From a gamma proteobacterium SCGC AB-629-P17 (GTDB taxonomy: Bacteria > Pseudomonadota > Gammaproteobacteria > PS1 > Pseudothioglobaceae), in NCBI GenBank assembly GCA_000372785.1, contig KB889813.1, forward strand, positions 1 to 63,061: a stretch of DNA of 63,061 bases, read 5' to 3'. The translations under genes were made by a program, and so were the position numbers. The notes under the pieces are model-generated. The model worked only from the letters and a program-made list of their open reading frames with translations, was not told where the DNA came from and searched no databases. Every line of letters starts with the position of its first letter. Position 1 is the first letter of the stretch. Of the stretch, positions 12,838 to 53,769 are shown piece after piece.

Positions 12838-12845
12838 TAACAATT

Positions 12846-13025
12846 TTGGAATCTATAAAGAAAGGTGGATGTAGCTGTGGCAGATCTCCAGTCGGTAGAT
12901 GCATTGGTTGGCATAAACTAACTGAAGATCGCTATCAAAAAGCACTTATTGAGTATAGTAAGATGTCAAAAAAACAAAAGACAGGTCGTTACCATGCAAA
13001 AGCAATAGATGGCTTAGGTGAATAA
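12846..13025 (+). CDS. Small cysteine-motif protein, about 59 residues
   Basis: A reading frame starting with TTG at 12846 encodes KKGGCSCGRSPVGRCIGWHK near its N-terminus, then a lysine-rich helix ending AKAIDGLGE. Three cysteines and one histidine in 18 residues (C-x-C-x7-C-x4-H) look like a metal or iron-sulfur site, and the composition is not that of random sequence. It lies 8 bp after the 62-residue gene. There is no ATG start, so the exact N-terminus is unsure. Unrecognised family. Confidence 0.45.
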   Translation: MESIKKGGCSCGRSPVGRCIGWHKLTEDRYQKALIEYSKMSKKQKTGRYHAKAIDGLGE

Positions 13026-13286: not shown

Positions 13287-13386
13287 CTTATCTCTCCTAT
13301 ATTGTTATAAAAATAAATCTAAGTTATTGGGTTGCTACATTAAATATACCTTCACTGATATATGAGATGTGAATGTTTTGCAAGTT

Positions 13387-14091: not shown

Positions 14092-14134
14092 TCGGAGATC
14101 CCCATAATCATATTCAGAAAGGTGTGTTTATTTA

Positions 14135-34179: not shown

Positions 34180-34180
34180 C

Positions 34181-34633: not shown

Positions 34634-34635
34634 TA

Positions 34636-35646: not shown

Positions 35647-35668
35647 TTAATTTATGGAGTAAATAAAA

Positions 35669-36995: not shown

Positions 36996-37110
36996 GTGGA
37001 GGATACTCAGCAAATTTGTTTCACTCCTTCAGGTCGTAAATTCCAAGGCGAATTGGGTGATACCTTGTTGCAGGTTGCACAGGATGCCGGGATAGCGGTT
37101 CGTTCCTTGT
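36996..37110 (+). CDS. RACo-like corrinoid activation protein, N-terminal fragment
   Basis: The GTG at 36996 opens a gene whose first 39 residues (ICFTPSGRKFQGELGDT, then LLQVAQDAGIAVRSLCG) match the N-terminal 2Fe-2S ferredoxin domain of RACo/RamA-like reductive activators of corrinoid proteins. The domain breaks at its first cysteine-glycine loop, exactly where the inverted arm starts. The rest of the gene, normally including an ASKHA ATP-binding domain, is missing. Its context, next to a corrinoid protein that needs Co(I) restoration, supports the call. Confidence 0.7.
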
Positions 37111-37388
37111 GTGGTGCAACTATCGTCATGTTTGGTACGGTTGCTGTTGCAGGTATAAAGATTCTTGCTACGGTGAATATGAATCGACGTAATATGCTGA
37201 TTCTAGCAGTATCTTTTGGAATGGGTATAGGTGTTCTACTGGTTCCTCAATTTGCAGGCGCCTTGGCAAATAATATTGGCGGCACATTTGGTAAACTCAT
37301 AGGTAGTATCTTTAGTTCTGCCATTACTACTGGCGGCCTAACGGTTCTTATTTTGAGCGCCATTATGGGTGAAAAAGTAGAAGACTAA
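37111..37388 (+). pseudogene. Uracil/xanthine permease tail fused at chimeric junction
   Basis: The last 92 residues of the NCS2 permease (complete at 4321-5694) continue in frame from the ferredoxin fragment. This gives a spurious 130-residue fusion frame from 36996 to 37388. It lacks the first four fifths of the transporter. Confidence 0.9.
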
Positions 37389-37400
37389 AATAGTCTAAAT

Positions 37401-37430
37401 AAAAAAAGGGGGTAGCTTATTGTTACCCCC
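37401..37430. terminator. Bidirectional terminator, right-arm copy
   Basis: Mirror of 4279-4308: GGGGGTA / TACCCCC stem, with the T-run on the minus strand after the hydrolase gene. Confidence 0.7.
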
Positions 37431-37494
37431 GATATTGATAAATATTAAATATTCTCAATATATTATTTATTTAAAATCTATTCATATATTTATC

Positions 37495-37546
37495 CATTAC
37501 CTACACATTACGCTTGAAAACCCAAATTTCGTTTGATGTGTGAGGG
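37495..37546 (-). repeat. Interspersed repeat, type B (right-arm copy)
   Basis: Mirror of 4163-4214. Confidence 0.85.
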
Positions 37547-37565
37547 AGAATTTTAAGAATTCAAC

Positions 37566-38681
37566 TTATTGTCTAAGGGGCTCCCACCAAGGTGTTTTTG
37601 GTAAGTTAATCAAGTCAAATATTTCACCAATCATTGGAGTTGCAATATTGACATTCCTTTTTTCTGCTTCATGAGTGACCCGAATGATCGGCTCATCCCA
37701 AGTGTGAATGGACAAATCAAATTTAGACCAATGAATTGGAAAAAGTACTTTTGCTTTTAAATCTATATTTGCTTGAACAACCTCATCTGGAAACATATGA
37801 GTTGTGGACCAGTCAGCGTTGTAGGCACCATTCTCAAGAAAGGCTATATCGAAAGGACCATATTGATCACCTAAGTCTTTAAATGTTTCTGAATATCCAC
37901 CATCTCCACTGAAGTAAGCTTTCAATGTGTTAGAGGAAATAATCCATGAGCCCCATAAAGTTGATCTTCTATTTGTTAGTCCTCGACCACTAAAATGTTG
38001 TGCTGGGGTTAATGTGAACTTAATATTTTTATAGTCTTCGCTGTCATGCCAATCGAGTTCGCTGATTTTATTTTTATCAACTCCCCATCTTTCTAAATGC
38101 GCTTTAACTCCTAAAGGAACAAAAAAATGATCAACCCGTTTTGAAAGATCTTTAATTGCTTTAGAATCAAGGTGGTCATAATGATCATGGGATATGACAA
38201 CTACATCAACTTTTGGGAGGTCATCAATAAGAATTGGGTTTTTAAATGTAAATGGCTTTCCAAAAATAGGCAGTGGAGAGGCTCTATTAAAGATCGGGTC
38301 AGTCATAATAATAATTCCATCAGTATTCATTAGAAGGGTTGAGTGTCCTAGCCAAACAAACTTGCCTTCTATTAAAGTATCTCTTTGAAATTTAATTGTT
38401 GGAAGAGGCTCTAATGGATTTTTATCACTAGGTGGAGAAATCCAGTCCATTAAAGAAGCACTTTTCTCAGAAGTTCTTGAATTCGTATAGGTTGTTTTTA
38501 AATTGACAAATTTTCCATCGATAAAGTTTTTTGATCCTTGAATAAGTTTGATACTATCTTTGTCTGGCGAGCCCCCAAAAACAGGTGAGAAATTGAGAAA
38601 AATAATGATAAAAATGGCAAAAATAAATAAAAGATAAATTAAATATTTGACTATATTGAGAATTCTAGAGATTGTATCCAT
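37566..38681 (-). CDS. NAPE-PLD/RomA-like metallo-hydrolase, duplicate
   Basis: Identical protein to that at 3028-4143 (371 residues, HDHYDHLD metal motif, N-terminal hydrophobic anchor). Present only because of the inverted arm, so it should not be counted as a paralogue. Confidence 0.8.
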   Translation of the reverse strand: MDTISRILNIVKYLIYLLFIFAIFIIIFLNFSPVFGGSPDKDSIKLIQGSKNFIDGKFVNLKTTYTNSRTSEKSASLMDWISPPSDKNPLEPLPTIKFQRDTLIEGKFVWLGHSTLLMNTDGIIIMTDPIFNRASPLPIFGKPFTFKNPILIDDLPKVDVVVISHDHYDHLDSKAIKDLSKRVDHFFVPLGVKAHLERWGVDKNKISELDWHDSEDYKNIKFTLTPAQHFSGRGLTNRRSTLWGSWIISSNTLKAYFSGDGGYSETFKDLGDQYGPFDIAFLENGAYNADWSTTHMFPDEVVQANIDLKAKVLFPIHWSKFDLSIHTWDEPIIRVTHEAEKRNVNIATPMIGEIFDLINLPKTPWWEPLRQ

Positions 38682-38734
38682 GTGGTAATTACCCTTAAAT
38701 ATCTAATACTCTTTTCATACTAGAATTATATTTC

Positions 38735-38775
38735 AATTTGAACTTAGTCAAAGTCCAAATTTCGTTTGATGTGTG
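38735..38775 (-). repeat. Interspersed repeat, type A (right-arm copy)
   Basis: Mirror of 2934-2974. Confidence 0.9.
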
Positions 38776-38877
38776 AGGGAAGTTATAACAATAATCTCAA
38801 AAATGCGTACTTGTTTATTTTTAATATATCCCCAAATAGTTTTTAACAAATTAAATTAACTATGTGGGTATATAAAA

Positions 38878-39885
38878 ATGAAATCACTAATGATGACAAA
38901 ATACGGAGATATAGGTACAAGCCTGGAAGAACAAGAAGTTTCTATACCCACTGTTGGCGCAAATCAAATACTTATTAAAACTCACTCTGCAAGCTTTAAT
39001 CCAATCGATTATAAGATTCTTAGAGGTGACTTCAAGGCTGTGGGAAAAATACAGTTTCCTAAGGGAATTGGAAGAGACGTCAGTGGTATTGTTGAAAAAG
39101 TAGGAAAAAATGTAAAAAACTTTAAAGCTGGAGACAAAGTATATTCAAGGATAGACGAAGCCTTTGTTGGCACTATGGCAGAGTATGTGATTTCAAATGA
39201 CAACGATGTAGCATTGATTCCTTCAAATCTTAGTTTTGATGAATCAGCCAGTATACCTTTGGCAGGTCTGACTTCTTATCAGGCGCTTGTTGATGTAGCC
39301 AAGTTATCTTCTGGAGAAAATATTTTAATACACGCTGGGTCTGGAGGAGTTGGCACTATTGCCATTCAACTTGCGAAGCATCTAGGGGCAAATGTCACAA
39401 CTACTACTAGCACTAAAAATGTTAAATTGGTAAAAGATTTAGGCGCAGATAAGGTTATCGATTACACAAAACACAGCTACCTTGATGAAGGCACTAAGTT
39501 TGATGTGGTATTTAACACTTTAGGAGGTAAGCACACTCTTAACTCATTTAAGGTGTTAAAGGATGGAGGAAGAGTAGTATCTATATCAGGAGACCTCGAC
39601 AGCGTTACAACAAAACAACTTGGCCTAAACAAGGTTGTACGATTATTATTATCACTTAAAGCAAAAAAAGTTACTAAGGCGGCCTCAAAAATGGGTGCTA
39701 TGTATAGGTTTCTATTAATGTCTCCGAATGGTGCTCAGTTGAAAGAGTTGTCAAAGTTATATGAGTCTGGCTCAATCAAACCAGTGATAGACAAAACTTA
39801 TAACTTTGATGACAGCATCCAAGCGCTTGATTATTTGTCCAAAGGTCGTGCCAGGGGGAAAGTTATTGTGAAGATAAGAGAATAA
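38878..39885 (+). CDS. MDR quinone oxidoreductase-like reductase, duplicate
   Basis: Identical protein to that at 1824-2831 (335 residues, AGSGGVGT nucleotide motif, no zinc cysteines). Part of the inverted arm. Confidence 0.8.
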   Translation: MKSLMMTKYGDIGTSLEEQEVSIPTVGANQILIKTHSASFNPIDYKILRGDFKAVGKIQFPKGIGRDVSGIVEKVGKNVKNFKAGDKVYSRIDEAFVGTMAEYVISNDNDVALIPSNLSFDESASIPLAGLTSYQALVDVAKLSSGENILIHAGSGGVGTIAIQLAKHLGANVTTTTSTKNVKLVKDLGADKVIDYTKHSYLDEGTKFDVVFNTLGGKHTLNSFKVLKDGGRVVSISGDLDSVTTKQLGLNKVVRLLLSLKAKKVTKAASKMGAMYRFLLMSPNGAQLKELSKLYESGSIKPVIDKTYNFDDSIQALDYLSKGRARGKVIVKIRE

Positions 39886-39925
39886 ATTTGAACTTAGTCA
39901 AAGTCCAAATTTCGTTTGATGTGTG
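39885..39925 (-). repeat. Interspersed repeat, type A (right-arm copy)
   Basis: Mirror of 1784-1824, touching the stop codon of the reductase gene. Confidence 0.9.
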
Positions 39926-40483
39926 ATTAATGGAAACGAATGGAGGAAGAGCGAATATAAGCAAACTCTAGGCTTTGGTTTTGCCTAGTAAAGTGATTGC
40001 TTATCTAAACAATGAAAGTCTTAACAGTACCTACACAGTACGCTTGAAAACCCAAACTTCGTTTGATGTGTGAGGGAGGGTATTAATACATAGCCGAGTG
40101 AAAGTAGGCTCCTCCACCCCTTAAGAGTCTGAATAAATATGCGAAGGAGGGTGGTTTTTCAGAACCACACGTAACTCATTGATTTCCCACATAAATAGTA
40201 GATTTATATTACATATCTATCTAGTTTGATGGTTTATTGATAGTAAATATATACAAAAAGTGAAGGGTTTCAATTCATTCTAGTGTACCCCGAGCGTACC
40301 CCAGACCATTATTTAAGAAAGTAGTAAATCTCTGAAACCCTTTATGAAAAAAAGATGTCTTGTTTTGATATGGTGGTTCTTGCAATCGTCAATAACACAG
40401 GCAGGAGAATTGCCGTCAACAGCGAAAAATCACTGTAACTAAAAATGACTTATTTATAATTAGCCGATTGCAAGATACCAAAA
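39886..40483. other. Non-coding stretch, right-arm copy
   Basis: Mirror of 1226-1823, including the type B repeat at 40025-40076 and the interrupted inverted repeat at about 40362-40484. No gene seen. Confidence 0.6.
40025..40076 (-). repeat. Interspersed repeat, type B (right-arm copy)
   Basis: Mirror of 1633-1684. Confidence 0.85.
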
Positions 40484-40891
40484 CTATCCATAATGATTCA
40501 TCAAATCTGCAATTCTCTTTAAAAAGATTGCGTGCTCACAAGCTTCCTCTGATGAATATATTTCTTCTTGTATATCTACTGGAACACCACGAATACCTGA
40601 TACGATACCTATCTTATACTGCTCAAACATTCGAACACAAACGGTAACATATTTCCCAGCCATAGGCGCCCTTCGCATCTTGTCAAGGATTGTTCTGAGA
40701 TCTTGACTATGTTCTATAGCAGCTCTACCATTTGAAGGAGCATTGCCAACTGGGCTATTTCTATGTTCAGCAATCAGCTTTCTACGTGATTCATCATCAA
40801 ATAAAAGCGGCATTACATAAGTTCTCGTAATATAGTCGTCAGTCTCGGTATGAGATTCGTTTGCTATTACACCTTTTTCTTTATCTAACAT
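40484..40891 (-). CDS. DMFase-like small subunit, right-arm copy
   Basis: Identical to the 135-residue protein at 818-1225. In this copy the whole upstream operon (rhodopsin, flotillin-like protein, large subunit, paralogous small subunit) is visible, 30 bp or so between genes. It is the last gene of that operon. Confidence 0.75.
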   Translation of the reverse strand: MLDKEKGVIANESHTETDDYITRTYVMPLLFDDESRRKLIAEHRNSPVGNAPSNGRAAIEHSQDLRTILDKMRRAPMAGKYVTVCVRMFEQYKIGIVSGIRGVPVDIQEEIYSSEEACEHAIFLKRIADLMNHYG

Positions 40892-40921
40892 TATTTAATC
40901 CTCATTAATTCATTAATATTC

Positions 40922-41290
40922 TTAATGGTTACGGCATGGCACTGACTCACCCCGTTCTTCCTTTAAACGCACTGCTTCAATTTGCGCTTCTTCAGGTGTG
41001 TTGAAGACTTTATCTTCAAAAAGTATTAACGGCTTTGCTCGATCAGCATTTAACTGCCCTACACACCATTCCTTTCCTTCAATTGTACAAACTGCAACAT
41101 AAGCTCCTGCAATTGGACCATAGTGGCGGTTATTTAATGTAAATAGACATTCTGCTAAATCACTAACCTTATCCTCATCTAGAGTACTAATTACATTTTT
41201 CTCTAATTCATTAAGAGGTTTAGTGCTTGTTCCAACTACCGATTTACCAATAGGTGGATCCATCATATCTGGGTGTTTATTAATTGTCAT
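40922..41290 (-). CDS. DMFase small-subunit-like paralogue, right-arm copy
   Basis: Identical to the 122-residue protein at 419-787. It lies 26 bp after the complete large-subunit gene and carries the same strong ribosome site. Confidence 0.7.
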   Translation of the reverse strand: MTINKHPDMMDPPIGKSVVGTSTKPLNELEKNVISTLDEDKVSDLAECLFTLNNRHYGPIAGAYVAVCTIEGKEWCVGQLNADRAKPLILFEDKVFNTPEEAQIEAVRLKEERGESVPCRNH

Positions 41291-41316
41291 TTTAAATTAC
41301 CTCCTTTCTAAAATTA

Positions 41317-43695
41317 CTAAGGTAAGGGGCCATCTTTTAAAAACCCTCTAATTGCATTCTCTGTAATGCGGGAAACATTATTATTGTAGTTATTATGAGA
41401 AAGACTGCCACACCAAGACAATGAGCCAGGTGCAAACACTCCGCCATCATTAGGAGTCTTATAAAATATCATGTCAGCTCGCACCATAGGGTTTTCAGTA
41501 CCTCCTCCATGGTAGCCACGAACAGAAAAGTGGATTTCTTCATTCACTTGAAGCATCAAATTAGTATGTCCCACAGAATGCGCCAATAAATAGGAATCAT
41601 GCGGGGTTCCAAATTCAACATCATATCGATCTAACTCTAAACCGGCTGCTCCTCCACCAACAAGTCCAAAATCACCAATCTTTTCACCATTTCCTACTCC
41701 CTCCATTAGCCAAGAAGTTTCTGGTCTTTCACTGTCTTTATCTCTAACATAGTAGGATGAAACGTCAAAGCCATATGCAGTAAATGTTAGTCCACATAAC
41801 TTACTTGGAATTCTTCCACGAGCTCTCCACATACCTCCATATTTACCATCAAAAGCATTATTATATTCTCCAGGATTCGCAGTCCAAGCCCTTGTTCCTG
41901 CTTCACCTTTTCGAACCTCAATAATGTTTGAATTATCCGGGTGGTATTCACTACACCAGTAAAAACCATTTGCACCTAAATAAATCCATCGACCGCCATC
42001 TTGTTGATATTTTTCATATGCTGCAAACATTTTCTCTGAAGTGTATTCTGGGTGACTTCCTGTCAATACAGTTTGATATTTATTTAATAAACCTACACCC
42101 TCTCTATTTAAATCCTCATCAGTATGAATATCAAAATCAAAGTTTTTTTCTTCCAGCCAATCTATAAGGTGCAGATCACCGTTGAGCTGCCATAGTGATG
42201 GTGATAGCCAATGACGATATTTAGGACGCATATTTAAAATTGGTCTCAGTCTTGATGAGTAGCAAACACCACTTCCATCTGAATGCAATGAATAAGTTGA
42301 AAGTCCATATTCTCTATGTTCATTCAAATACAAATCAGCTGCAGTCATAACAGGAACTTTTCCAGCTAATAACTCTGCCACAACACAATTCGTACAAAGA
42401 TTATCATTTGAATATGCTAAGTATGAGTTTGTAGGCAGAATAAAGGCCAATTTTGATGTAGTTTTTCCTCTTGGAGGACGAACAACGAAGGGAATATAGT
42501 CTTCTGTTTCTGGAGAGTCTTCACCTCCAATTCTTAGACGTGCAGCATAAATACCACTTTTCAAGCTGTCTGGAATTTTGAATTCAAAGTCAACGTCCCA
42601 TCTTGCATCATCTATATCATCATCATGAAAATGGATTGCACCATATTCTTCAGGTTTATGATGATAAATAATTTCATCACCAGTCCAGTTAAAGCCTGTC
42701 ATACCGCGAACAGGCATATTTATAATTGAACCATTCAATCTAGATGGTGACGTATCAATAATACAAGTCGAAGCAATGTTAGTAGTTATATTTGCATGGA
42801 AGTCCCAAGCACCAACCACATCATTTCGTAATTCAGCTTTACAGCCCTGATAACCACGAGCTAATGATTCAATTTCAGACTTAGACAAAGCTCTTCTAGA
42901 AAGCCTTGGTCGATCTATCTTGCCATTATAGGTATGAACCTGTTCTGGCAATTCAATTGGCTCTAATACCTCTTTAAAATGACCTCCAATAATATGCCTA
43001 CCAGATCTCTCATTTTTTGTACTCGCTGCCATTAAGAAAGGGGCATCATTAATTCCTGGCTTTAAACTATTGATTGATTCAACAACTGCTGTAGTCTCTT
43101 CTGCTGGATTTAATAAACCTTGGCCAAGGCCTCCATTGGTAGAAGTTACAACGGGCTCTTGATATAAAGTTACTTTACCTGTTCTTGAATCGTAACTAAC
43201 CGCAGCAAGATACCAAACTTTACGTAAAAGTTTTTTATCACTCGAAAGTTTCATAACTTGACCACTACCGTCGCCTATTTCTACAGACAAACAGTTATTC
43301 TCATCAATAAATAACCCATAGCCACTTTTTGTTTCTTCAACCCATTTAGTTAAAACACCTTGACGACCTTTTTGAGGTGTACCAAGTCCAATAACTGGTG
43401 TTGTTGGAAAGATATAGCATTGAAGAGTAAAACTTTCTACATTAAGACGCTCATCTTGCGGCACAATTACGTATGAACCGCCATGTATTCTTTGATTTTT
43501 CCCTGGATAGTTTTTATTGCATTCAGCTTGGATCTCTTCTTCTTTATATCCAGGTCCCTCTGGATTGGTGTCACCATGTATTAATCGGACGATTTGTGTT
43601 TCATAAACCTCACTATCTTCAGAGTTAACATAAAATTGTATGTTATCCCCAGGACAAACAGAGTATTTGTCGCTATAACCAGTAATTCTTAACAT
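41317..43695 (-). CDS. N,N-dimethylformamidase-like large subunit
   Basis: A 792-residue protein, near the roughly 760 residues of the Paracoccus DMFase large subunit. The N-terminal region (about 1-110) is beta-rich, a LamG-like lectin fold follows (about 110-290), and the C-terminal catalytic part (about 400-792) begins LAFILPTNSYLAYSND. DMFase uses an iron bound by two tyrosines and one glutamate. Tyr425 (NSYLAY), Tyr463 (HREYG) and Glu550 (SHPEYTS) have matching spacing and are my candidates. The enzyme hydrolyses an amide to an amine and a carboxylate in the cytoplasm; no signal peptide is seen. Two small-subunit paralogues follow. Substrate specificity is inferred only. Confidence 0.82.
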   Translation of the reverse strand: MLRITGYSDKYSVCPGDNIQFYVNSEDSEVYETQIVRLIHGDTNPEGPGYKEEEIQAECNKNYPGKNQRIHGGSYVIVPQDERLNVESFTLQCYIFPTTPVIGLGTPQKGRQGVLTKWVEETKSGYGLFIDENNCLSVEIGDGSGQVMKLSSDKKLLRKVWYLAAVSYDSRTGKVTLYQEPVVTSTNGGLGQGLLNPAEETTAVVESINSLKPGINDAPFLMAASTKNERSGRHIIGGHFKEVLEPIELPEQVHTYNGKIDRPRLSRRALSKSEIESLARGYQGCKAELRNDVVGAWDFHANITTNIASTCIIDTSPSRLNGSIINMPVRGMTGFNWTGDEIIYHHKPEEYGAIHFHDDDIDDARWDVDFEFKIPDSLKSGIYAARLRIGGEDSPETEDYIPFVVRPPRGKTTSKLAFILPTNSYLAYSNDNLCTNCVVAELLAGKVPVMTAADLYLNEHREYGLSTYSLHSDGSGVCYSSRLRPILNMRPKYRHWLSPSLWQLNGDLHLIDWLEEKNFDFDIHTDEDLNREGVGLLNKYQTVLTGSHPEYTSEKMFAAYEKYQQDGGRWIYLGANGFYWCSEYHPDNSNIIEVRKGEAGTRAWTANPGEYNNAFDGKYGGMWRARGRIPSKLCGLTFTAYGFDVSSYYVRDKDSERPETSWLMEGVGNGEKIGDFGLVGGGAAGLELDRYDVEFGTPHDSYLLAHSVGHTNLMLQVNEEIHFSVRGYHGGGTENPMVRADMIFYKTPNDGGVFAPGSLSWCGSLSHNNYNNNVSRITENAIRGFLKDGPLP

Positions 43696-43734
43696 AATAT
43701 TTCCTTAATTTTTATTAATTAAAAGTTAAATTGA

Positions 43735-45732
43735 TTAGGACTCTTCGCCCTCTATATCTTCATCCTTTTTGTCGCCTTTTCTATAATCACCAAGTAGGTT
43801 TTTAATATTGCCAATCTCATTTGGAGACATGCCAATTTCATCAAGAAGATGATCAATAAATGGAACTTGTGCTCTGTAGCGCATAGCTGCATTTACTACA
43901 TTTTCAGGCAGACCCCCTCCTCCATTAGGATTAGGTCCTACAAAATCAGGATTAGCACTATTTGAATTAAATCCTGGCATACCATTTAATTCGTAAATTT
44001 TTATGTCATCAATATTTTCCATTGGCTTGACTGCCTCCCGAATAATTGAATCAAGATTTCTCGCTAACTCCATTCTAAGATCACTTTGCCTACTTTCATC
44101 ACTACGAGCGTTTTCTGCTTCATTAAGCATCAACTTACCAGCGGCATCAATCTCATAGCGTAGTTTGTTAGCCAGAGAGGTATGTTTTTCGGCTTGTTCT
44201 TTCTCTTGGGCGGCTTCTTTTTCAGCCCTAGCAAGGGTAGTAATTTGAATCGCCTCACTTTCCCCTTCCTTTTCTGCATGTATTAATTGCAACTTCTTAT
44301 TACGTTCTGCAATCTCGACTTCTTGTGCTGAAAGAACTTGCTCTTCAGCAACAACTACTTCGGCTCTTGCTTGTTCTTTACTTTCAATTGCATTTAATAC
44401 TTCTACAGTTTTAGCTATAACTTCAAGTTCACGATTCTTCTCTTCTATTTCAAGATTTTTTCTCTTTTGAATTTCTGAAGTTTGAGCTTGCTGGTCGTTT
44501 TCTATTCGCGTTATTTCTATGATTCGTTGCTGTTCTATCTCTAATTTTTTCACCTCTTCTTGGGCCTTTATTTGGGCCTGTTCAGCTTCTACATAACGAT
44601 CTGACTCTACCTTAAGAACCTCAGCCTTTTGTTTGGCTCTTTGAGATGATATCTCTTCTTCCTGCTTGAGCCTTGCAAACTCATTTTCCTTTTTAATTTC
44701 CAAGGATCTAATTTCAGCCTCAAGATTCTTTTCTTTAATATCGATCTCCGTTTGCCTTTCAATTTCATTTCGAAGTTTTTTACGCTCCTCAATCTGGAGA
44801 GTTAACTCATGTTCACGCAATGAGCGTTCAACCTCAATAGTATCTTGTTGTTGGATGCGAGCCTTCTCAACATCTTCTGCAGATTGAATTCTTGCTTCTT
44901 CAGCTAAACGCTCCTGTCTTGCAGTCTCAACAGCCATTTCGGTAGTTTCTTTATCTCGCTGCTTAGCAATTTCACGTTCTTGTAACAATCTGGAAAATTC
45001 CCTTTCCTGATCAATTTCAAGTGATCTTTGTTCTGCTTCTAAATTCTTAGATCTAATTCTTATAGCAGTGTCTTGCTCAATATCATTACGTTTTTTCTTT
45101 CCAGCCTCAATCTGTTCTGTTAACTGTGTAAGACCTTCGGCATCAAAAGCATTCGATGGATCAAATACTTCTAGGCCGGCTTGATCCACACTGGTCAAAG
45201 AAACGGCTTCAAGTTCAAGTCCTGTTGAACCTAAAGATTCAGCAACAATTCCCTTAACTGCTTTGATATATTCACCACGTTTTTCTTGAATTTCTTCCAT
45301 AGACATCTGAGCAGCAACAATACCCAAAGCATCTACAAAACGACCCTGCACTAGATCTCTCAATCTTTCTGGCTCCATCGTTCTTTTACCTAGTGTCCCA
45401 GCTGCAATTGATACAGCCTCTTTTGATGGTGTAACACGGACATAAAATTCTGCGACTATTTCAACACGCATACGATTTTTTGTAATAAAAGATTTATCAC
45501 CACCTCGTCTAACCTCTATGCGTAAAGTTCTCATCCCAACAGCGGTTATATTGTGAATGATTGGCAATACAAAGGCACCGCCACTGATTACAACCTTTTC
45601 ACCACGAAGTCCAGTTCTTACAAAAGAAACTTCTTTAGATGATCTTCGATACAACCAATGCAGCAAATAAACAAAAATAGCTATTGCTAATGCTGTCAAA
45701 ATAATAGTTGCAATGATATCTGCGCCAGTCAT
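43735..45732 (-). CDS. Flotillin-like SPFH membrane scaffold protein (YqiK type)
   Basis: A 665-residue protein. One N-terminal transmembrane helix (about residues 5-27) is followed by an SPFH/band-7 domain (about 35-200, including VRTGLRGEKVVISGGAFVLP). A long coiled coil of Glu, Lys, Arg and Gln repeats spans about 205-540, and a short C-terminal domain ends EIGNIKNLLGDYRKG. Flotillins organise membrane microdomains and gather other membrane proteins. No NfeD partner is present. It lies between the rhodopsin gene (30 bp upstream) and the DMFase-like gene (39 bp downstream) on one strand, so it may scaffold one or both. Confidence 0.88.
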   Translation of the reverse strand: MTGADIIATIILTALAIAIFVYLLHWLYRRSSKEVSFVRTGLRGEKVVISGGAFVLPIIHNITAVGMRTLRIEVRRGGDKSFITKNRMRVEIVAEFYVRVTPSKEAVSIAAGTLGKRTMEPERLRDLVQGRFVDALGIVAAQMSMEEIQEKRGEYIKAVKGIVAESLGSTGLELEAVSLTSVDQAGLEVFDPSNAFDAEGLTQLTEQIEAGKKKRNDIEQDTAIRIRSKNLEAEQRSLEIDQEREFSRLLQEREIAKQRDKETTEMAVETARQERLAEEARIQSAEDVEKARIQQQDTIEVERSLREHELTLQIEERKKLRNEIERQTEIDIKEKNLEAEIRSLEIKKENEFARLKQEEEISSQRAKQKAEVLKVESDRYVEAEQAQIKAQEEVKKLEIEQQRIIEITRIENDQQAQTSEIQKRKNLEIEEKNRELEVIAKTVEVLNAIESKEQARAEVVVAEEQVLSAQEVEIAERNKKLQLIHAEKEGESEAIQITTLARAEKEAAQEKEQAEKHTSLANKLRYEIDAAGKLMLNEAENARSDESRQSDLRMELARNLDSIIREAVKPMENIDDIKIYELNGMPGFNSNSANPDFVGPNPNGGGGLPENVVNAAMRYRAQVPFIDHLLDEIGMSPNEIGNIKNLLGDYRKGDKKDEDIEGEES

Positions 45733-45762
45733 AATTTTCTCTCCTTAAATAAATTTATATAT

Positions 45763-46476
45763 CTATTTTTTATTGTTTTCTATTCTTGCTTGGGTGTCAT
45801 TCATAGCTGCCCTATATACAACGAACCCAAAAATTATTTTGTTTAAAAAGTCGGTTAGGTTGTAAATAATATTAAGACTATTTACATCCACTCCACCACC
45901 AAGGTTATTAATAAAATACCCAAGTGGATAAATCGCCCAACCAATAGTAAGAATCAATCTCAATCCATTAAATGCTAGATGTGATGCCTCATTGCCACTA
46001 TCTATGTTGGCGCGGCTTGCTTCACCCATATAAAGTTCACCAAGAATATAAAGCCAACCAACAACACCAATAATAAAACCTAATGTTGCACTCATATAGC
46101 CTGCAGCCCCTAAAAATTCACCTATCACCATTACCAGGGTTCCGATTAGTAATCGCCAAAATAGTGCCGATGAGACTTTTGTAACTGCAGTCAAGATGAC
46201 ATAAAAAAGTACAACTTGCATAGTATGCGTAAGTATCCAATCTAAATATCGAAGGATAATTGGGGCTGTCCCCGTATCAACCCACATTGTTTTAACATAG
46301 TGGTAGAAAACAGCTGATACCAGCATCGTAACACCTAACAGTGTCATTGTCGTGTGCCATCTATCATCAACCTTATTTCTTTCAAGTAGAAAGAAGATCG
46401 TAGCACCTATCATTGCCATGGATAAAAGCCAAAATGTGCCACCTACAATGTCAGTTGGTAATAATGTAGTGTTCAT
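45763..46476 (-). CDS. Proteorhodopsin-family retinal protein without donor carboxylate
   Basis: A 237-residue, seven-helix microbial rhodopsin. Helix 7 has the retinal lysine K213 in NLTDFLNKIIFG. Helix 3 reads RYLDWILTHTMQVVLFY: D79 is the Schiff-base counterion, T83 is conserved, and Q87 is at the blue-tuning position. L90 replaces the proton-donor Glu of proteorhodopsin, and H84-T85 replace the usual Val-Pro. H59 matches the His that pairs with the counterion. Helix 6 WAIYPLGYF is intact. It is a retinal protein, but efficient pumping is doubtful; a sensory or slow role is possible. No retinal synthesis gene is near. Confidence 0.92.
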   Translation of the reverse strand: MNTTLLPTDIVGGTFWLLSMAMIGATIFFLLERNKVDDRWHTTMTLLGVTMLVSAVFYHYVKTMWVDTGTAPIILRYLDWILTHTMQVVLFYVILTAVTKVSSALFWRLLIGTLVMVIGEFLGAAGYMSATLGFIIGVVGWLYILGELYMGEASRANIDSGNEASHLAFNGLRLILTIGWAIYPLGYFINNLGGGVDVNSLNIIYNLTDFLNKIIFGFVVYRAAMNDTQARIENNKK

Positions 46477-46691: not shown

Positions 46692-47867
46692 TTAATGATC
46701 CTCTGGATCATATTCCTCTGGATCAGCAGGTCTTAAGAAGAAATTATCAACGTATTCCTTACCACCCCAAACTTCAACACCTGGGTTGTACCACAAGGTA
46801 GAGTTACGATCACAATCAGTTCCCATCATTGCTTCAACATCTGCATATTCAATTGTTAATGGCGGTACTAAGATTGATTGAATCTTAGGTCCTTGACCCT
46901 GCAAAGTACGCATCATGATGTTCCAACCAAGCTCAATATCATCACCTGGAGGCCATGTCTGAATAGCTCCACTAATATAATCAGGGTTATTACGCCAGTA
47001 ACATAGAGCACCAATTTCACCACCAATTGACATTGGAGGAATGTCTCGCCCTGACTGCAAAACTGCCGCTAAAACACCAGTTTCACCAGAAGACTGAACC
47101 GCAATTCCATCAAGCTGTCCAGGGTGAGTAGCTAACCACTTCTGAGTCTCAGCTTGACCAACTTGTGATGTCCACATATGTGCAATCTGACCAGTAACTT
47201 TAATATCAGGATATTGAGATAATCCATCTAAAACACCAGCATTTTGTGAATCTGATGCCGAAAATCCAGGAATACCTTCAATTACAAGTACATTACCTTT
47301 TCCATCAATCTCTTCAGCCATCCAAGTTCCAACATCATATCCAGCCTGATGGTAGTTCACTGATGAATTTATTGAAAGTGGTGAAGTTGTATATCCAGTA
47401 AATGAAAATACTGGAACACCTCTATCAAAGGCGTACTTAATTGCTTGATTCAAAGCAGTTGGGTTTGAGCAACAAATAATTATTGCATCAACACCTTGAT
47501 CAACAAGTTGTCTGATCTGCTGAATCTGTAATGCATCCTTAAGGTTTGACTGTGTAACAATGATGTCATTAAGTAAACCGAGTTCTTGCCATTTGGGTTT
47601 GATTTCATCCATCAATCGAGCCATTGCACCTTTACGCCAGGTATTTCCAGCATAAGTACTAGCATAACCTACAGTCCATGGAGGCGAACGTTCACTTTTC
47701 CAATCTCTAAACGCACTATCATCAAGTGGCTGAATTGGATCCATCAAATCCATGTTATAAACCCTATCCCGAATATCCTGAGGAATTTCATCAAGTCCTG
47801 CAATGGCCATCGACGTAAATCCGAATGACAAAATACAAGTCATGATCAGTTTTAATAGTTTTTTCAT
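46692..47867 (-). CDS. Ribose-type ABC periplasmic binding protein
   Basis: A 391-residue protein with a signal peptide (about residues 1-23, SMAIA-G). The family-4 sugar-binding layout shows GYASTYAGNTWRKGAMARLMDE near the N-terminus (in part: GYASTYAGNTWRKG), LVDQGVDAIIICCSNPTALNQ, and GVLDGLSQYPDIKV. The C-terminal segment has a Cys pair (GALCYW and GTDCDR) that could form a disulfide. Such proteins normally feed RbsC-type permeases, and candidates lie at 53871, 57419 and 59648. It heads the rhodopsin-flotillin-DMFase cluster and is preceded by the conserved palindrome. The ligand is unknown. Confidence 0.85.
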   Translation of the reverse strand: MKKLLKLIMTCILSFGFTSMAIAGLDEIPQDIRDRVYNMDLMDPIQPLDDSAFRDWKSERSPPWTVGYASTYAGNTWRKGAMARLMDEIKPKWQELGLLNDIIVTQSNLKDALQIQQIRQLVDQGVDAIIICCSNPTALNQAIKYAFDRGVPVFSFTGYTTSPLSINSSVNYHQAGYDVGTWMAEEIDGKGNVLVIEGIPGFSASDSQNAGVLDGLSQYPDIKVTGQIAHMWTSQVGQAETQKWLATHPGQLDGIAVQSSGETGVLAAVLQSGRDIPPMSIGGEIGALCYWRNNPDYISGAIQTWPPGDDIELGWNIMMRTLQGQGPKIQSILVPPLTIEYADVEAMMGTDCDRNSTLWYNPGVEVWGGKEYVDNFFLRPADPEEYDPEDH

Positions 47868-48153: not shown

Positions 48154-48846
48154 GTGATAAAAGTTATGGAAAACAAAAAGGATAGTAGACCTATAAAATA
48201 TAAAATTGTTATAGCAGATGACCACGCCTTGGTTAGAGGTGGTTTAGAATTAGTCGTTAAAATGGCTGTACCAAATGCCGAAATATTTCAAGCAAATAGT
48301 TTTGATGAGACGATAAATGTTCTTAATTCTAATTTCTCAATTGATTTAGTTTTACTTGATTTAATGATGCCTGGCATGTGGCATGACAGCATACAAAGTA
48401 TTACTACACAATTTCCTGACGTTCCTATAGTCATTGTTTCTGTAAAAGAGGACTTTGATTCAATTCACAACTCAATTTCTTTAGGTGCTTCTGGTTTTAT
48501 ACCTAAAACTTCTGCACCAGAAGTTACTATAAGCGCTATTCAGCTTGTTTTAGCTGGTGGTGTCTACATACCGCCTCATGTGCTGAAATCCCAAACCAAT
48601 CCTATTCAAGATGATGAAAAGTTAGATGGCTATGATAGTGTTAAACGCTTGTCTAAAAGACAAAAAGAAGTTCTTGGTCATATCAGTCTTGGTAGATCAA
48701 ACCAGGAGATTGCTGATGAATTAGGCTTAACTATTCCAACAATTAAAATGCATGTTTCAGCAATTTTTAAAAAACTTAATGTTAAAAATCGTACTGAAGC
48801 TGTATCCATTTATTCTAATTTAGATAAATTTTCAGATTTACTTTAA
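48154..48846 (+). CDS. LuxR/NarL-type response regulator
   Basis: A 230-residue two-component regulator (226 if the ATG at 48166 is used). The receiver domain starts YKIVIADDHALVRGG, the phospho-acceptor Asp is in LVLLDLMMPGM (residue 69, or 65 from the ATG), and there is the usual K in FIPKTSA. The C-terminal helix-turn-helix is LSKRQKEVLGHISLGRSNQEIADELGLTIPTIKMHV (in part: LSKRQKEVLGHISLGRSNQ). It should be phosphorylated by the hybrid kinase at 51709 and bind the palindromes at 48003 and 55022. The TorT-like gene follows by 28 bp. Confidence 0.9.
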   Translation: MIKVMENKKDSRPIKYKIVIADDHALVRGGLELVVKMAVPNAEIFQANSFDETINVLNSNFSIDLVLLDLMMPGMWHDSIQSITTQFPDVPIVIVSVKEDFDSIHNSISLGASGFIPKTSAPEVTISAIQLVLAGGVYIPPHVLKSQTNPIQDDEKLDGYDSVKRLSKRQKEVLGHISLGRSNQEIADELGLTIPTIKMHVSAIFKKLNVKNRTEAVSIYSNLDKFSDLL

Positions 48847-48874: not shown

Positions 48875-50137
48875 ATGGCAACTAAACTTTTACGACTACT
48901 GTGTTTCATGTTTAATATTTGTATTTTTATTAACTATAAAAAGTGCCATAAAAATTTAAAAAAAATACTAACTCCATTTTTTTTAGTCACATTCCTTAAT
49001 ATTCCCATCCTTAGCCTGAATATTGCTCATGCAGATGAAGAAAATTACTGGAAGCAAAATGTTAACGTTTTTAACTTATCTTGTACAGACGGTGATGTAG
49101 ATTGCTGGATTGATGAAAGAAATGCACTAGAAAAATTACCACTTGTAGAGTATGCACCTTTGAAAGTCTCTGAAGTTAATAAAAAACATCATATATGTGT
49201 CTCATTTCCACATTTAAAAGACTCTTATTGGGTTGGAGTGGCTTATGGAATTATTTCTGAAGGAAGGCGCCTAGGTCAAAAAATAACTTTATTTGAAGCT
49301 GGAGGATATACAAATCTGGCAACACAATTAAGACAAGTTGACGACTGTTTAACTAATAATGGTGAAGCTTTAATTATTGGACCGATCTCAAGTAACGGCA
49401 ATGCAAAACAAATTGACATGATAAGGGCTAGAGGAATCCCAGTAGTTGTCCTTGTCACTGGAATTAATACAGAGGTTGATGCAAATTCACTTCAAAGCTT
49501 TGTCAACATGGGCTATACCTCTTGTAAATGGGTTTCAGATCAAGAAAAACTTAATGATGGAAAGACCAACATTGTATGGTTTCCAGGACCTCCTGGAGCT
49601 GGCTGGTCCATAGCCTCTCACCAAGGATGTCTTAGCGCTCTAGAGGGAACTAATATTAGGATATTAGAAACTAATTGGGGTGATACTGGAAAAGCTATAC
49701 AGTTGAAATTAGTTGAAGAAACACTACAGAACTTAGCCTCAGGCCCTGAACCAGAATTTAAATATATTGTAGGCACTGGGACTACAATTGAAGCAGCTGT
49801 TGGAGCCCTTAGGGCAAGAAAGCTTGCAAATAAAATCAAACTGGTAGCCACATATTACACACCTGGAATAGATATGTTTATAAAACGCGATCTAATTTCA
49901 ATGGCACCTTCAGACCAAATGATTTCCCAAGCAACAATTGCTGTCGACCAAGCAGTAAGACTTCTTGAAGGAAAAAATATGGCAACCTTAGGAAGACCAG
50001 AATTTAATAATACTGGTCGTGTTACAGAGCATGTTCAACAACAAATATTGATTGTAACTCCTGATATATCAGATCAATTCAACTCATCTACAACACTGGC
50101 ACCAAAAGGCTGGACTCCAATATTTTCAGTAGACTAA
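48875..50137 (+). CDS. TorT-like periplasmic sensor protein
   Basis: A 420-residue periplasmic binding-protein-fold protein. It has a long N-terminal extension before the secretion signal (hydrophobic about residues 28-48, LNIAHA-D), which makes the annotated start doubtful. The segments HHICVSFPHLKDSYWVGVAYG and LFEAGGYTNLATQLRQVDDC strongly resemble TorT (here split as FPHLKDSYWVGVAYG), the TMAO-binding partner of the TorS sensor kinase. It should present a small methylated-amine-like ligand to the kinase at 51709 or deliver it to an importer. Cysteines at TSCKW and HQGC lie in the mature part. Confidence 0.8.
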   Translation: MATKLLRLLCFMFNICIFINYKKCHKNLKKILTPFFLVTFLNIPILSLNIAHADEENYWKQNVNVFNLSCTDGDVDCWIDERNALEKLPLVEYAPLKVSEVNKKHHICVSFPHLKDSYWVGVAYGIISEGRRLGQKITLFEAGGYTNLATQLRQVDDCLTNNGEALIIGPISSNGNAKQIDMIRARGIPVVVLVTGINTEVDANSLQSFVNMGYTSCKWVSDQEKLNDGKTNIVWFPGPPGAGWSIASHQGCLSALEGTNIRILETNWGDTGKAIQLKLVEETLQNLASGPEPEFKYIVGTGTTIEAAVGALRARKLANKIKLVATYYTPGIDMFIKRDLISMAPSDQMISQATIAVDQAVRLLEGKNMATLGRPEFNNTGRVTEHVQQQILIVTPDISDQFNSSTTLAPKGWTPIFSVD

Positions 50138-50164: not shown

Positions 50165-51712
50165 ATGTCACAACCCAATACCCCTTTGTTGAAGCTTGAG
50201 ACTATTTCTAAAAAGTTTTTTGGTTCCACTGTTCTTGAAAATATTAATTTCGACCTTTATCCTGGAGAAGTTCACGCTATCTTTGGACAAAATGGTGCTG
50301 GCAAATCTACCTTAATTCAAATTGTTACTGGAGACATTCAACCCTCAAGCGGTAAAATTATTCTCAATAAGGAGGAATTAAAAATTCATTCTGTACATAA
50401 AGCTAGAGAGTTAGGTATTAGTGCGGTTTTTCAAGAATTCTCCTTAGTTCCACAACTCACAGTTGAAGAAAATTTATTCCTAGGATCAAACACCTCAAAA
50501 GGTTTTTTTCTTAACAAAAAAAAGTTACACCAAATGGCGTGCCAGACCTTGGAACAACTTGAATTTTCTATCAAAGCTGAAGAGATGATTATCAATTTAT
50601 CACATGCAGAAAAAAGAATGGTTGAGATTGCTAAAGCTTTTCATACTAAACCATCCATTATGTTACTAGACGAACCAACAGCTTCATTAGCTGAAAATGA
50701 AACAAATCAGCTTTTTTCAATGATAGAAATTCTAAGAAAAGAAGGTATTGGGATTATCTATATTACACATCGAATGAATGAAATTTATAAAATTGCTGAT
50801 CGTATTACAATTCTTCAAGATGGTCATGTAGTGAATACAGATTCAGTAGCTAATATTAATGAACAAAAATTAGTAGAATTAGCAACCGGTCGAAATATTA
50901 CCAGTTTTTTTCCAGAAATAAAAAAACAACGTGGCAAAAAACTACTTGAAATAAAAAACTTAAATATAAGCAATAGTTTTGTTAAAGATGTTTCAATGAA
51001 TGTTAAAGCAGGAGAAGTTATTGGCATTACAGGATTAGCTGGCTCAGGTAAATCTGCAATTGGACGTGCCTGCTTTGGTATTAATAAAATTGCAGCAGGC
51101 GCAATTAGCTACTTGGATGATGTTATATTTGATAGCTCCAAACAAATTAATGATATTTCTCCACGATCAATGATAGACAGAGGAATGCTATATTTACCCT
51201 CTGATAGAAGGGCAGAAGGTCTGGTCATGGAACAGAATATTAGAGAAAACATTTCTTTGCCTTCACTAGGACTACCTAAATTTTCTAGTGGCTTTATTGT
51301 AAATAGAAAAATTGAAAAAGATATTGTAGAAAAAATCGGAGAACGCCTTAACTTTAATGCTCAAGGTATTGAAAACAAAATGGAACAACTCTCTGGTGGA
51401 ACTCAGCAAAAGGTAATGCTTGCGAAAAGTTTTGCTCGTGATGTCCAACTTTTTATTCTGGATGAACCAACTGTCGGTGTTGATATTGGAACTCGTGTCG
51501 CAATTTACGAAATAATAAAAGAATTTTGCGAGTCTGGAGGAGCCGTAATGCTGATCTCTTCAGACCTCTCAGAATTAGTAAATTTATCACATAGAATTTA
51601 CATTATTAGTGAAAAAAATGCGTGTGTTGAATTCAATGCTGAAGATTGTAATGAACATCTCATACAATATTACTTTCATAACTCTAGAGTTGAAACAGCT
51701 CAAGCCTCCTAA
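50165..51712 (+). CDS. Ribose-type ABC ATPase 1 (two NBDs)
   Basis: A 515-residue tandem ATPase of the RbsA/MglA group. NBD1 has Walker A GQNGAGKST (about residues 39-47), an altered signature LSHAEKRMVEIAKA, and Walker B IMLLDEPTASL. NBD2 has GLAGSGKSAIG, the canonical LSGGTQQKVMLAKSF and LFILDEPTVGVD. The signature of the first NBD is altered, as is usual in this family. It would drive one of the RbsC-type permeases. Its stop overlaps the convergent kinase gene by 4 bp. Cotranscribed with the TorT-like gene (27 bp gap). Confidence 0.9.
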   Translation: MSQPNTPLLKLETISKKFFGSTVLENINFDLYPGEVHAIFGQNGAGKSTLIQIVTGDIQPSSGKIILNKEELKIHSVHKARELGISAVFQEFSLVPQLTVEENLFLGSNTSKGFFLNKKKLHQMACQTLEQLEFSIKAEEMIINLSHAEKRMVEIAKAFHTKPSIMLLDEPTASLAENETNQLFSMIEILRKEGIGIIYITHRMNEIYKIADRITILQDGHVVNTDSVANINEQKLVELATGRNITSFFPEIKKQRGKKLLEIKNLNISNSFVKDVSMNVKAGEVIGITGLAGSGKSAIGRACFGINKIAAGAISYLDDVIFDSSKQINDISPRSMIDRGMLYLPSDRRAEGLVMEQNIRENISLPSLGLPKFSSGFIVNRKIEKDIVEKIGERLNFNAQGIENKMEQLSGGTQQKVMLAKSFARDVQLFILDEPTVGVDIGTRVAIYEIIKEFCESGGAVMLISSDLSELVNLSHRIYIISEKNACVEFNAEDCNEHLIQYYFHNSRVETAQAS

Positions 51713-53769
51713 GCTTGAATTAAGTGAGAAAGCATAGCTCGAAACTTTGCCGGCTGAATTGGTTTTAGTAACACTGGAAAACCCTGATCAATAATACTTT
51801 GTACATGGTTCCGCTCTACATCACCCGTCATAATGACACATGGAATTGAAGCCTGTAATTTTTCTTGAATTAAATAAGTAATATCAATACCAGATGCATC
51901 ACCAGGTAAACGATTATCTGCCAAAATAATATCTGGATTATCGTATGGATTTTCTTTAATTAAATTCATAACTTCATCTTTATTTCTTGCAGTTTTAACC
52001 TTGCAGCCCCATGATTCTAAGAGCTGCTTAGTTGCCTTTAAAACATCCATATCATCTTCAACTAAAAGAATGTTTGCACCTGATAAATTCATAATGTTCA
52101 TAAAACTTTCAGCTTGATTGTCATCAATTTTGTTTTCAGCAATATCGACGGCAACAGAAAAACAAGAACCATTCCCAAGCGTTGACTTGCTATCAATAGT
52201 ATGTTCTAAACTCTCAGCTAGACGTTTTGCGAGAGCAAGACCAAGACCTAGACCTTTACCTCTATCACGTTCCTTATTTTCAATTTGATAAAAGTCCTCA
52301 TAAATCAGTGACATCTGGTCATCAGAAATTCCACAACCAGTATCCCAAACTTCAATTACAACCTTATCGCCTCTCTTTCTACAACCTATCAATACCGAAC
52401 CCTTGTCTGTATAACGAATGGCGTTAGACATAAAATTTCCCAATATACGTTCCAGCAAGGCTGGATCACTTCTAACATAAAAACTTGATGGAACAACTCT
52501 AAAATCTAATTCTTTATCTTTGGCAAGAGGAAGGAATGATTGAAAGATACTAATCAAAATATTATTCACTGAAAAAATTTCAAATCTTGGCTTTATTGCA
52601 CCTACCTCCAATTCCGACACATCAAGTAGAGCATTCAATAATCTTGCTGTTGAGATTGAGACAGAGTTTATATCTTCAATAATACGAAGTATTTCTTTAT
52701 CCTTAACTTTCGATTGTAATGCAGCAATATACATTTGCATTGCATTTAATGGTTGACGCAAGTCATGGCTTGCTGAAGCTAAGAAAACTGACTTTGCTTT
52801 ATTTGCTCTTTCAGCATCAATTTTAGCGTTTTGGAGACCTTCTCCTTGCTCCCATAAATCCTCTTTAAGTCTATTAAAGCTTCGCCCCATTCTTCCCAGT
52901 TCATCTTCTCTAGATAAGATATTTTTTTCATCCTCAAATTCTTCTACCTTATGCAAAGGGGTGTATCTATTGATCGAGTCTGTTAGCAATTGCAGGGGTT
53001 TTGAAATATTCATTCTAACAATGACTAACACCATCGTGACAACAAATAGCAAAGCTATAAGGGAAGTTATAACGATATAGCTAAGAGCAATACGCTCTAC
53101 ATAGGTTATTTTTGATTTGGAAGCAAAAATTATTTCTTCTAATTCAGCATTTACTTTTCCAGCTTGCAATAGTAGAATATTTTCAGTATAGGAGATCTCC
53201 TTAAGATCATTCGCATCAATAGTGAGTATTTCAATATTTTTTTCAGCAAATAAATTATTCACTACCAGCCGATAATATATTTGATTTATTTTTCTTAGTT
53301 CATAAAGCTCAGAAAGTAATTTCTCCTGATGCGATGAAATTATAGCTATATCAGCTTTTGCTTCAGAATTTACTACCTTTATAAAAGACTCTGTATCAGC
53401 TATAGATTTCTTCAGTTTTTGATTAGCTATTAAAAATTCTGTTCGAATACTATCGTTTGCTAATAATTGATTATATTTTTCATAAAAACTCGTTTTTTCA
53501 GAGTCTTGGTTGACTATTTGACTAACAGTAATGAATAGTTCTTTTACGCTTAAACTTTGCTTATAAACATTTTCATCGATTGCGTTGACTGATTCAATTA
53601 AAGGGATAGTAATTGATGACATTTGCTTCGTCTCATCACCTACCGTATATACTTGAGTAAAGGCAACAAGCGCAACTGCAACAAAACCAAGAACCTCAAT
53701 GACTAATAGAGATAATATTTTCTGATTAAGGGATAGTCGATTAAAGAAATTTTGATTGGCTATTTCCAT
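51709..53769 (-). CDS. Hybrid histidine kinase, TorS-like architecture
   Basis: A 686-residue membrane sensor. Two transmembrane helices (about residues 18-40 and 236-262) flank a mostly helical periplasmic domain of about 195 residues. HAMP-like linker, HisKA with His335 in SASHDLRQPLNAM, HATPase with NAIRYTDKGSV and GKGLGLGLALAKRLAE, and a C-terminal receiver domain with Asp618 in LADNRLPGD follow. Unlike TorS it has no HPt domain. The periplasmic domain length fits contact with a TorT-like partner. It faces the ABC ATPase gene on the other strand and probably partners with the response regulator at 48154. Confidence 0.87.
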   Translation of the reverse strand: MEIANQNFFNRLSLNQKILSLLVIEVLGFVAVALVAFTQVYTVGDETKQMSSITIPLIESVNAIDENVYKQSLSVKELFITVSQIVNQDSEKTSFYEKYNQLLANDSIRTEFLIANQKLKKSIADTESFIKVVNSEAKADIAIISSHQEKLLSELYELRKINQIYYRLVVNNLFAEKNIEILTIDANDLKEISYTENILLLQAGKVNAELEEIIFASKSKITYVERIALSYIVITSLIALLFVVTMVLVIVRMNISKPLQLLTDSINRYTPLHKVEEFEDEKNILSREDELGRMGRSFNRLKEDLWEQGEGLQNAKIDAERANKAKSVFLASASHDLRQPLNAMQMYIAALQSKVKDKEILRIIEDINSVSISTARLLNALLDVSELEVGAIKPRFEIFSVNNILISIFQSFLPLAKDKELDFRVVPSSFYVRSDPALLERILGNFMSNAIRYTDKGSVLIGCRKRGDKVVIEVWDTGCGISDDQMSLIYEDFYQIENKERDRGKGLGLGLALAKRLAESLEHTIDSKSTLGNGSCFSVAVDIAENKIDDNQAESFMNIMNLSGANILLVEDDMDVLKATKQLLESWGCKVKTARNKDEVMNLIKENPYDNPDIILADNRLPGDASGIDITYLIQEKLQASIPCVIMTGDVERNHVQSIIDQGFPVLLKPIQPAKFRAMLSHLIQA

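Follow-up and report, generated by a model that had tools for sequence, protein, structure and literature searches.

The 63,061-nucleotide (nt) contig KB889813.1 of the gamma proteobacterium SCGC AB-629-P17 (the window, meaning this whole stretch) carries a minus-strand operon that encodes a rhodopsin, a flotillin, a large subunit of the N,N-dimethylformamidase (DMFase) type and two small proteins. From the match of its rhodopsin to the protein PsFAR and its fit to a published description, this operon can be identified with near certainty as the flotillin-associated rhodopsin (FAR) cluster, here in a marine gammaproteobacterium of the Pseudothioglobus type. The gene arrangement is already known; the point of interest is its regular partnership with DMFase and importer genes. 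In the available text of PMC10308929 the DMFase appears solely as one entry among the genes listed for the cluster. Should the DMFase set be a regular partner, the role of the FAR cluster becomes testable through its amide, and a lineage of retinal proteins recruited to nutrient uptake would, if true, be new biology. The five genes are:

40484..40891, minus strand: smA, DMFase small-subunit homologue, 135 amino acids (aa) (6lvb_B: phmmer E 2e-5, profile E 1.3e-7)
40922..41290, minus strand: smB, second small protein, 122 aa, probable divergent smA paralogue (profile-profile match with smA)
41317..43695, minus strand: dmfA2, DMFase-type large subunit, 792 aa (PF20254 318 bits; 6lvb_A E 5e-190)
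43735..45732, minus strand: flotillin with SPFH and Flot domains, 665 aa (PF15975 105 bits and PF01145 50 bits, both above cut-off)
45763..46476, minus strand: FArhodopsin, 237 aa (PF01036 108 bits, cut-off 24.6; 470 bits to PDB 9r21)

An open reading frame (ORF) check located the five genes at window 40484-46476 with intergenic gaps of 30, 26, 39 and 30 nt, confirming the original prediction of five minus-strand genes spaced by 26-39 nt. The rhodopsin, flotillin and DMFase-type large subunit that it named were likewise recovered by Pfam and PDB sequence matches. Stretches of purines resembling ribosome-binding sites precede the gene starts, as judged by eye. Promoter and terminator scans gave signals at or below the shuffle background and are therefore uninformative on the operon start; Rfam gave no matches over the whole window at gathering thresholds.

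The available text of Haro-Moreno 2023 (PMC10308929) describes FArhodopsins beside flotillin in Pelagibacterales, HIMB59 and Pseudothioglobus, a rhodopsin-flotillin tandem that is cotranscribed in a SAR11 genome, and a FAR genomic island that includes an N,N-dimethylformamidase. The window shares with this description the rhodopsin next to the flotillin on one strand, the N,N-dimethylformamidase, the DTL motif (stated there for Pseudothioglobus FArhodopsin), the genomic island, and the LuxR and hybrid kinase genes of Pseudothioglobus, in which the flotillin and the three last same-strand genes are reported as conserved. It had been claimed that no described system combines these elements, a claim that falls, as that paper names flotillin, N,N-dimethylformamidase and the host Pseudothioglobus together. 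Relative to the available text, the identification of the small genes as DMFase subunits, the DMFase linkage counts and the trio outside FAR clusters are added here.

Over its full length the window rhodopsin is 89% identical to PsFAR (9r21) and 88% to 9r23, compared with 47% to PsPR; these values, together with the flotillin gene 30 nt downstream, indicate a protein of the FAR type. The comparison with PsFAR was made through PDB titles and sequences alone. According to the titles of the Foldseek matches, 9r21 is PsFAR, a 'flotillin-associated rhodopsin', 9r23 is the PsFAR double mutant H84V/E120G and 9r22 is the proton pump PsPR. The numbering of H84 and E120 in 9r21 and 9r23 (released 2025-07-23) fits the window protein. 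The literature searched contained no paper on PsFAR, and on flotillin-associated rhodopsins in general it yielded only PMC10308929 and PMC10308909. The window rhodopsin has D79, T83 and L90 (DTL), Q87, H84, E120 and the retinal lysine K213. With L90 at the position of E108 in proteorhodopsin (PR), it lacks the DTE motif of proton-pumping proteorhodopsin and carries a non-DTE FAR motif, DTL as for Pseudothioglobus.

The motif counts cover 51 rows: one for the window, plus all of the 51 rhodopsin loci described below except L048, which a length filter removed. Five rows have DTL with H84, 25 DTT, one ETT, 19 DNI and one DNV, and the retinal lysine is present in all 51. Residue H84 occurs in 5/51 rows, every time with E120, while E120 is found without H84 only in L099. 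In the rhodopsin of L048, a member of the same genus, S replaces the T of the motif, and H84 and E120 are present. The pair H84 and E120 was observed in a Pseudothioglobus-like subgroup, namely the rhodopsins of L047, L053, L055, L057 and L048.

The flotillin shows an SPFH domain (Band_7, PF01145) followed by a flotillin domain (Flot, PF15975). The FloT equivalog (NF058507) was ruled out as an assignment, at 29.5 bits against a cut-off of 700.

The large subunit (DMFA2_C and Laminin_G_3 domains in Pfam) aligns over its full length with the Paracoccus DMFase 6lvb_A in a PDB sequence search, and also matches 8huy, an N-acetyl-beta-phenylalanine acylase. The available text of PMC7686228 gives the roles of active-site residues in the Paracoccus enzyme, including two tyrosines and one glutamate as iron ligands plus a histidine. 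These residues map to S424, Y428, Y468, H548, E550, N576 and F723 of dmfA2, and by alignment to 6lvb_A the iron ligands Y428, Y468 and E550 and the catalytic H548 are kept. All except N576 are invariant in 80/80 of the loci analysed below. N576, at the position of N547, is N in the window and in 11/80 loci, and D in the other 69/80. As far as the Paracoccus system (6lvb) is described in the available text, it has in common with the window the full-length large subunit, the named active-site residues and one small subunit; it differs in that it has one small gene where the window cluster has two, and its N547, matched in the window, is D in most of the relatives. Over 645 columns the window dmfA2 is identical to that of isolate AH-558-A21 (L052). 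A second DMFase large subunit, 40% identical and with the iron-site residues kept, was observed in G003 (L026, G003:C10:10801-13065), away from the FAR cluster.

Neither small protein has a Pfam or NCBIfam match at E 0.01. The prediction that both are small-subunit paralogues stands for smA, which matches 6lvb_B, and is likely, not proven, for smB. The qualification for smB reflects a link that consists of a profile match to smA over 53 columns (probability 94.6%) and a weak fold match. Against PDB sequences smB gave no match of note (best E 0.84, unrelated). No Foldseek match of its predicted model (mean pLDDT 79.5) to the PDB reaches E 0.001, and 6lvb_B has the highest probability (0.54, E 0.27) among the weak matches listed.

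We searched 58 genomes, the window's own (G000) and 57 relatives; 29 of the 58 belong to the host genus. FAR-type rhodopsin (84-100% identity) was found in five of these 29 (G000, G003, G009, G014 and G019), and the flotillin in the same five, with only partial matches in G055 beyond the genus. FAR-type dmfA2 is present in these five and in G027, whose contig ends inside dmfA2; G011 has a 50% dmfA2 fragment at a contig start. Rhodopsin, flotillin and dmfA2 are thus together in every genus genome with that rhodopsin. The five-gene arrangement is more than chance, since the gene order of the window recurs in the other four FAR genomes of the genus. In a Pelagibacteraceae sample of 197 genomes, FAR-type rhodopsin and dmfA2 were each found in five and both in four. 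The two singles (G096 and G117) sit on contigs too short to reach the expected place of the missing genes, and together with G027 they were counted neither as counterexamples nor as support.

To follow the linkage in other lineages, contigs were scanned with the five dmfA2 proteins, which gave 153 matching stretches, 128 of them relatives (29 pattern stretches and no relatives on viral contigs); the best 80 of the 128 were analysed. The 48 dropped relatives are less similar, so linkage is over-estimated for the DMFase family at large. Four of the 80 loci (L047, L048, L052 and L055) are genus contigs already counted above; L047 and L052 are titled Candidatus Thioglobus, and L047, L052 and L055 are placed in Pseudothioglobaceae. 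Many loci are titled Pelagibacteraceae, and we call HIMB59-like those titled Alphaproteobacteria, from their DNI motif. L049, L079 and L096, which have the window's DMFase type, are titled Flavobacteriales, Euryarchaeota and Klebsiella and are probably mis-binned or mislabelled.

Among these best 80 of 128, rhodopsin and flotillin are present in 48 of the 52 loci whose DNA extends 7.1 kb or more upstream of dmfA2, and neither is present in the other four (L097, L100, L102 and L107). Where 1 kb of DNA flanks dmfA2 on either side, both small genes are present in 64/64 loci; the overall figure is 78/80, the misses L054 and L059 being contigs that stop 7 and 125 nt past dmfA2. The order FAR-flot-smA-dmfA2-smB-SSS, where SSS denotes a sodium:solute symporter, was found in 25 of the 51 rhodopsin loci, FAR-flot-SSS-smA-dmfA2-smB in 20, FAR-flot-dmfA2-smB-smA in three and FAR-flot-SSS-dmfA2-smB-smA in two (L053 and L057); one is cut short. 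The same content through several gene orders argues for selection on linkage. A DMFase tree (42/82 rows after near-copies were dropped) did not settle gain against loss of the rhodopsin linkage, its outgroup branch being very long.

Within the genus the conserved unit is larger than the predicted interval 40484-46476, which holds for the five genes: fifteen genes at window 40484-63061 stand in one shared order in all four other FAR genomes. The ten further genes are:

46692..47867, minus strand: Peripla_BP_4 solute-binding protein (PF13407 127 bits), 215 nt upstream of the rhodopsin
48154..48846, plus strand: NarL/LuxR-type response regulator (PF00072, PF00196)
48875..50137, plus strand: TorT-like periplasmic binding protein (NF008185 283.5 bits, cut-off 200; below the TIGR02955 cut-off)
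50165..51712, plus strand: RbsA/AraG-type ABC ATPase 1 (PF00005; best NCBIfam AraG/RbsA, below cut-offs)
51709..53769, minus strand: hybrid sensor histidine kinase (HisKA, HATPase, REC; HAMP just under cut-off; NahK/TorS-like below cut-offs)
53871..54887, minus strand: BPD_transp_2 permease 1 (PF02653 105 bits)
55170..57371, plus strand: sugar-type ABC ATPase 2 with a long C-terminal extension (PF00005 123 bits)
57419..59614, plus strand: BPD_transp_2 permease 2 (PF02653 53 bits)
59648..61072, plus strand: BPD_transp_2 permease 3 (PF02653 99 bits)
61142..63061, plus strand: SSS sodium:solute symporter, running off the window (PF00474 78 bits; complete relatives in the four other genomes)

Next to the rhodopsin, the window and its four FAR relatives in the genus all have the solute-binding protein gene. 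Outside the fifteen genes, in 40 kb per genome of the four relatives, no ORF matched the window ORFs except for a weak 33% ABC hit in G009; these flanks were compared with the window flanks only. The module has in common with TorTS sensing of trimethylamine N-oxide (TMAO) a TorT-like binding protein and a TorS/NahK-like hybrid kinase. It differs in that its kinase is far below the TorS cut-offs, and no TMAO reductase was noticed among the fifteen genes. The NCBIfam match of ABC ATPase 2 stops at residue 527 of 733, and the extension of about 200 residues past it is hydrophilic and probably disordered, as judged by eye.

Other neighbours are found outside the window module: an alpha/beta hydrolase cluster (61/85 of the sources compared) and a 129-aa protein (60/85), neither of which is in the module, the latter with sub-threshold Pfam matches only (PoNi_C E 0.018, SCP2 E 0.043). 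Lineage-specific neighbours include iron-containing alcohol dehydrogenases, metallo-beta-lactamase fold proteins, a LamB_YcsF protein with biotin-carboxylase/carboxyltransferase genes, and a protein like N-acyl-homoserine lactone lactonases, below its cut-off. These neighbours suggest a ring-opening and amide-catabolic theme.

It is likely that the cluster is one functional unit, as was predicted, though not of an undescribed combination, because the linkage of rhodopsin, flotillin and DMFase recurs across several distant lineages and ABC and SSS importers lie in the same module. We give about even chances to a pathway that takes up a small amide and cleaves it with an iron-dependent hydrolase, the rhodopsin and flotillin being membrane accessories. 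The TorT-like sensor would control the uptake of a small polar amide, which would enter by the SSS symporter, the sugar-type ABC importers or both. The DMFase, with one large and two different small subunits, would then split the amide into an acid and an amine at its 2-Tyr-1-Glu iron site. The membrane part, made up of FArhodopsin and flotillin, would gather or regulate the importers and not drive them. A narrower version, in which FArhodopsin serves chiefly for something other than light energy, the two are a dedicated membrane scaffold or regulator for amide uptake and hydrolysis, the cells have no means of making retinal and the rhodopsin is empty or holds scavenged retinal, and the whole is a catabolic island with a three-component DMFase, is possible but doubtful.

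Several observations weigh against an amide importer-hydrolase with membrane accessories. By sequence, the importers of the module are closest to sugar importers. The amide substrate is putative; enzymes of the DMFase family also take other amides (e.g. 8huy). The tie of rhodopsin and flotillin to the importers is hypothetical. The 80 loci come mostly from related SAR11- and HIMB59-like genomes and are not independent cases. Loci unlike that of the window, which are more likely to be without rhodopsin, are under-counted in the best 80 of 128. Two FAR loci fall outside the three known groups, and the rhodopsin of one of them, L057, is interrupted by an in-frame stop.

The trio smA-dmfA2-smB also stands without rhodopsin or flotillin in the loci L096, L097, L100, L101, L102 and L107, a further point against. 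All six are contigs of metagenome-assembled genomes (MAGs), with less than 7.1 kb upstream in L096 and L101. A genome-wide search of these MAGs found no rhodopsin in five, while that of L102 has a PR-like 48% match with a stop elsewhere; the absence of flotillin holds for the locus only. Genome-wide searches for L049, L050 and L056, covered together with eleven other loci and with DMFase contigs that are short upstream, found only rhodopsin matches of 34, 46 and 52%, not of the FAR type. Close relatives with the rhodopsin or flotillin gene elsewhere and dmf genes on their own had been proposed as a sign of a chance arrangement. This is half borne out: dmf genes on their own are found in these six loci of other bacteria, but within the genus the FAR-type genes are together in all five genomes with the rhodopsin. 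In L097 a TorT-ATPase-permease set is directly upstream of smA-dmfA2-smB, which indicates that the TorT-type importer is linked to the DMFase independently of the rhodopsin. Flavin monooxygenase, glutamine-synthetase-like, PhyH and luciferase-like proteins are encoded near the rhodopsin-less trios.

The supply of retinal bears on any light-driven role. In the 29 genus genomes, 11 of which have a completeness of 90% or more and a contamination of 5% or less, we found no member of the Blh family (positive in 3/9 SAR11/HIMB59-like genomes), the RPE65 family (2/14 controls positive) or the phytoene/squalene synthase family (7/14 controls positive). Blh was also not found in the other 6/9 SAR11/HIMB59-like genomes, four of which are FAR carriers outside the genus (G065, G066, G067 and G091). 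The three families seem to be absent from the genus, which is perhaps unable to make retinal by known routes. Uptake of retinal, another route or an empty protein remain as options.

PR-like rhodopsin matches (46-51%) were found in 11/29 genus genomes, in two pieces in G009 and with one stop each in G007, G014 and G025. Both rhodopsin types occur together in three, G003, G009 and G014, and no PR-like rhodopsin was found in G000 (77% complete). G019 (L048), listed as 94% complete, has a FArhodopsin with the motif D-S-L and no PR-like match, in contrast with the rule in the available text of PMC10308929 that a proteorhodopsin is always present, as was found in the single amplified genomes (SAGs) of that study.

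It is unlikely that FArhodopsin acts as a slow receptor for light or chemicals, either gating the pathway or passing a signal on to the sensor kinase and LuxR regulator nearby. The non-pump motif, the constant pairing of H84 with E120, the joint mutation of that pair in 9r23 and the presence of a hybrid kinase and regulator inside the module would all suit a receptor, but the kinase pairs more naturally with the TorT-like protein and no transducer gene adjoins the rhodopsin; the available text of PMC10308929 also raises the lack of transducers.

That paper, as far as available, proposes that FArhodopsin assists a normal proteorhodopsin in dim light. We regard this as quite improbable for the window cluster. 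The three genomes with both types (the PR-like match being interrupted by a stop in G014 and split in G009) and the constant presence of PR in SAGs favour it. However, G019 has the FAR type only, and the most regular companion of the cluster here is the DMFase set.

Still less probable is the reading, allowed by the original prediction, that FArhodopsin pumps protons in the light and so energises the importer. The protein belongs to the proteorhodopsin family and retains K213 and D79, but has L at the PR E108 position, giving DTL and not DTE. ABC importers run on ATP and SSS symporters on sodium. The 0/29 result for the retinal families also weakens the idea, though this argument equally hits the PR-like proteins of the genus. 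In addition, a DTT-type rhodopsin put into E. coli by others gave neither pigment nor pH change, as cited in the available text of PMC10308929.

Least probable of all is hitchhiking, in which one genomic island carries rhodopsin-flotillin and DMFase as unrelated cargo: the module flanks in the four other genomes differ from those of the window and the DMFase trio exists alone, but the same content persists through several orders in Gamma- and Alphaproteobacteria, with operon-like spacing in the window.

The window contig is a chimera. A perfect (100%) inverted repeat of 4598 nt joins window 1-4598 and 37111-41708, one end lying inside dmfA2 and the other in a fused ORF, 36996-37388, at the junction. 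The feature, which does not belong to the system, is:

37111..41708, no strand: inverted-repeat arm, an assembly or amplification chimera

We take ORF 36996-37388 to be a uracil-permease gene fused to an unrelated ORF, the permease being named from a reading of the ORF. In G027 the DNA past smA leads through a metallo-hydrolase gene into the equivalent of window 9868-16152, which is the order of the left copy. Distances across 37111 are consequently false, and genes at about 4.6-37.1 kb are to be measured from the left copy; the five operon genes are unaffected. Corrinoid-protein and methyltransferase-like genes, presumably, from the reading of their ORFs, occupy window 32838-36568; they were rejected as downstream partners of the operon, their apparent closeness being an artefact of the junction and their true distance about 30 kb.

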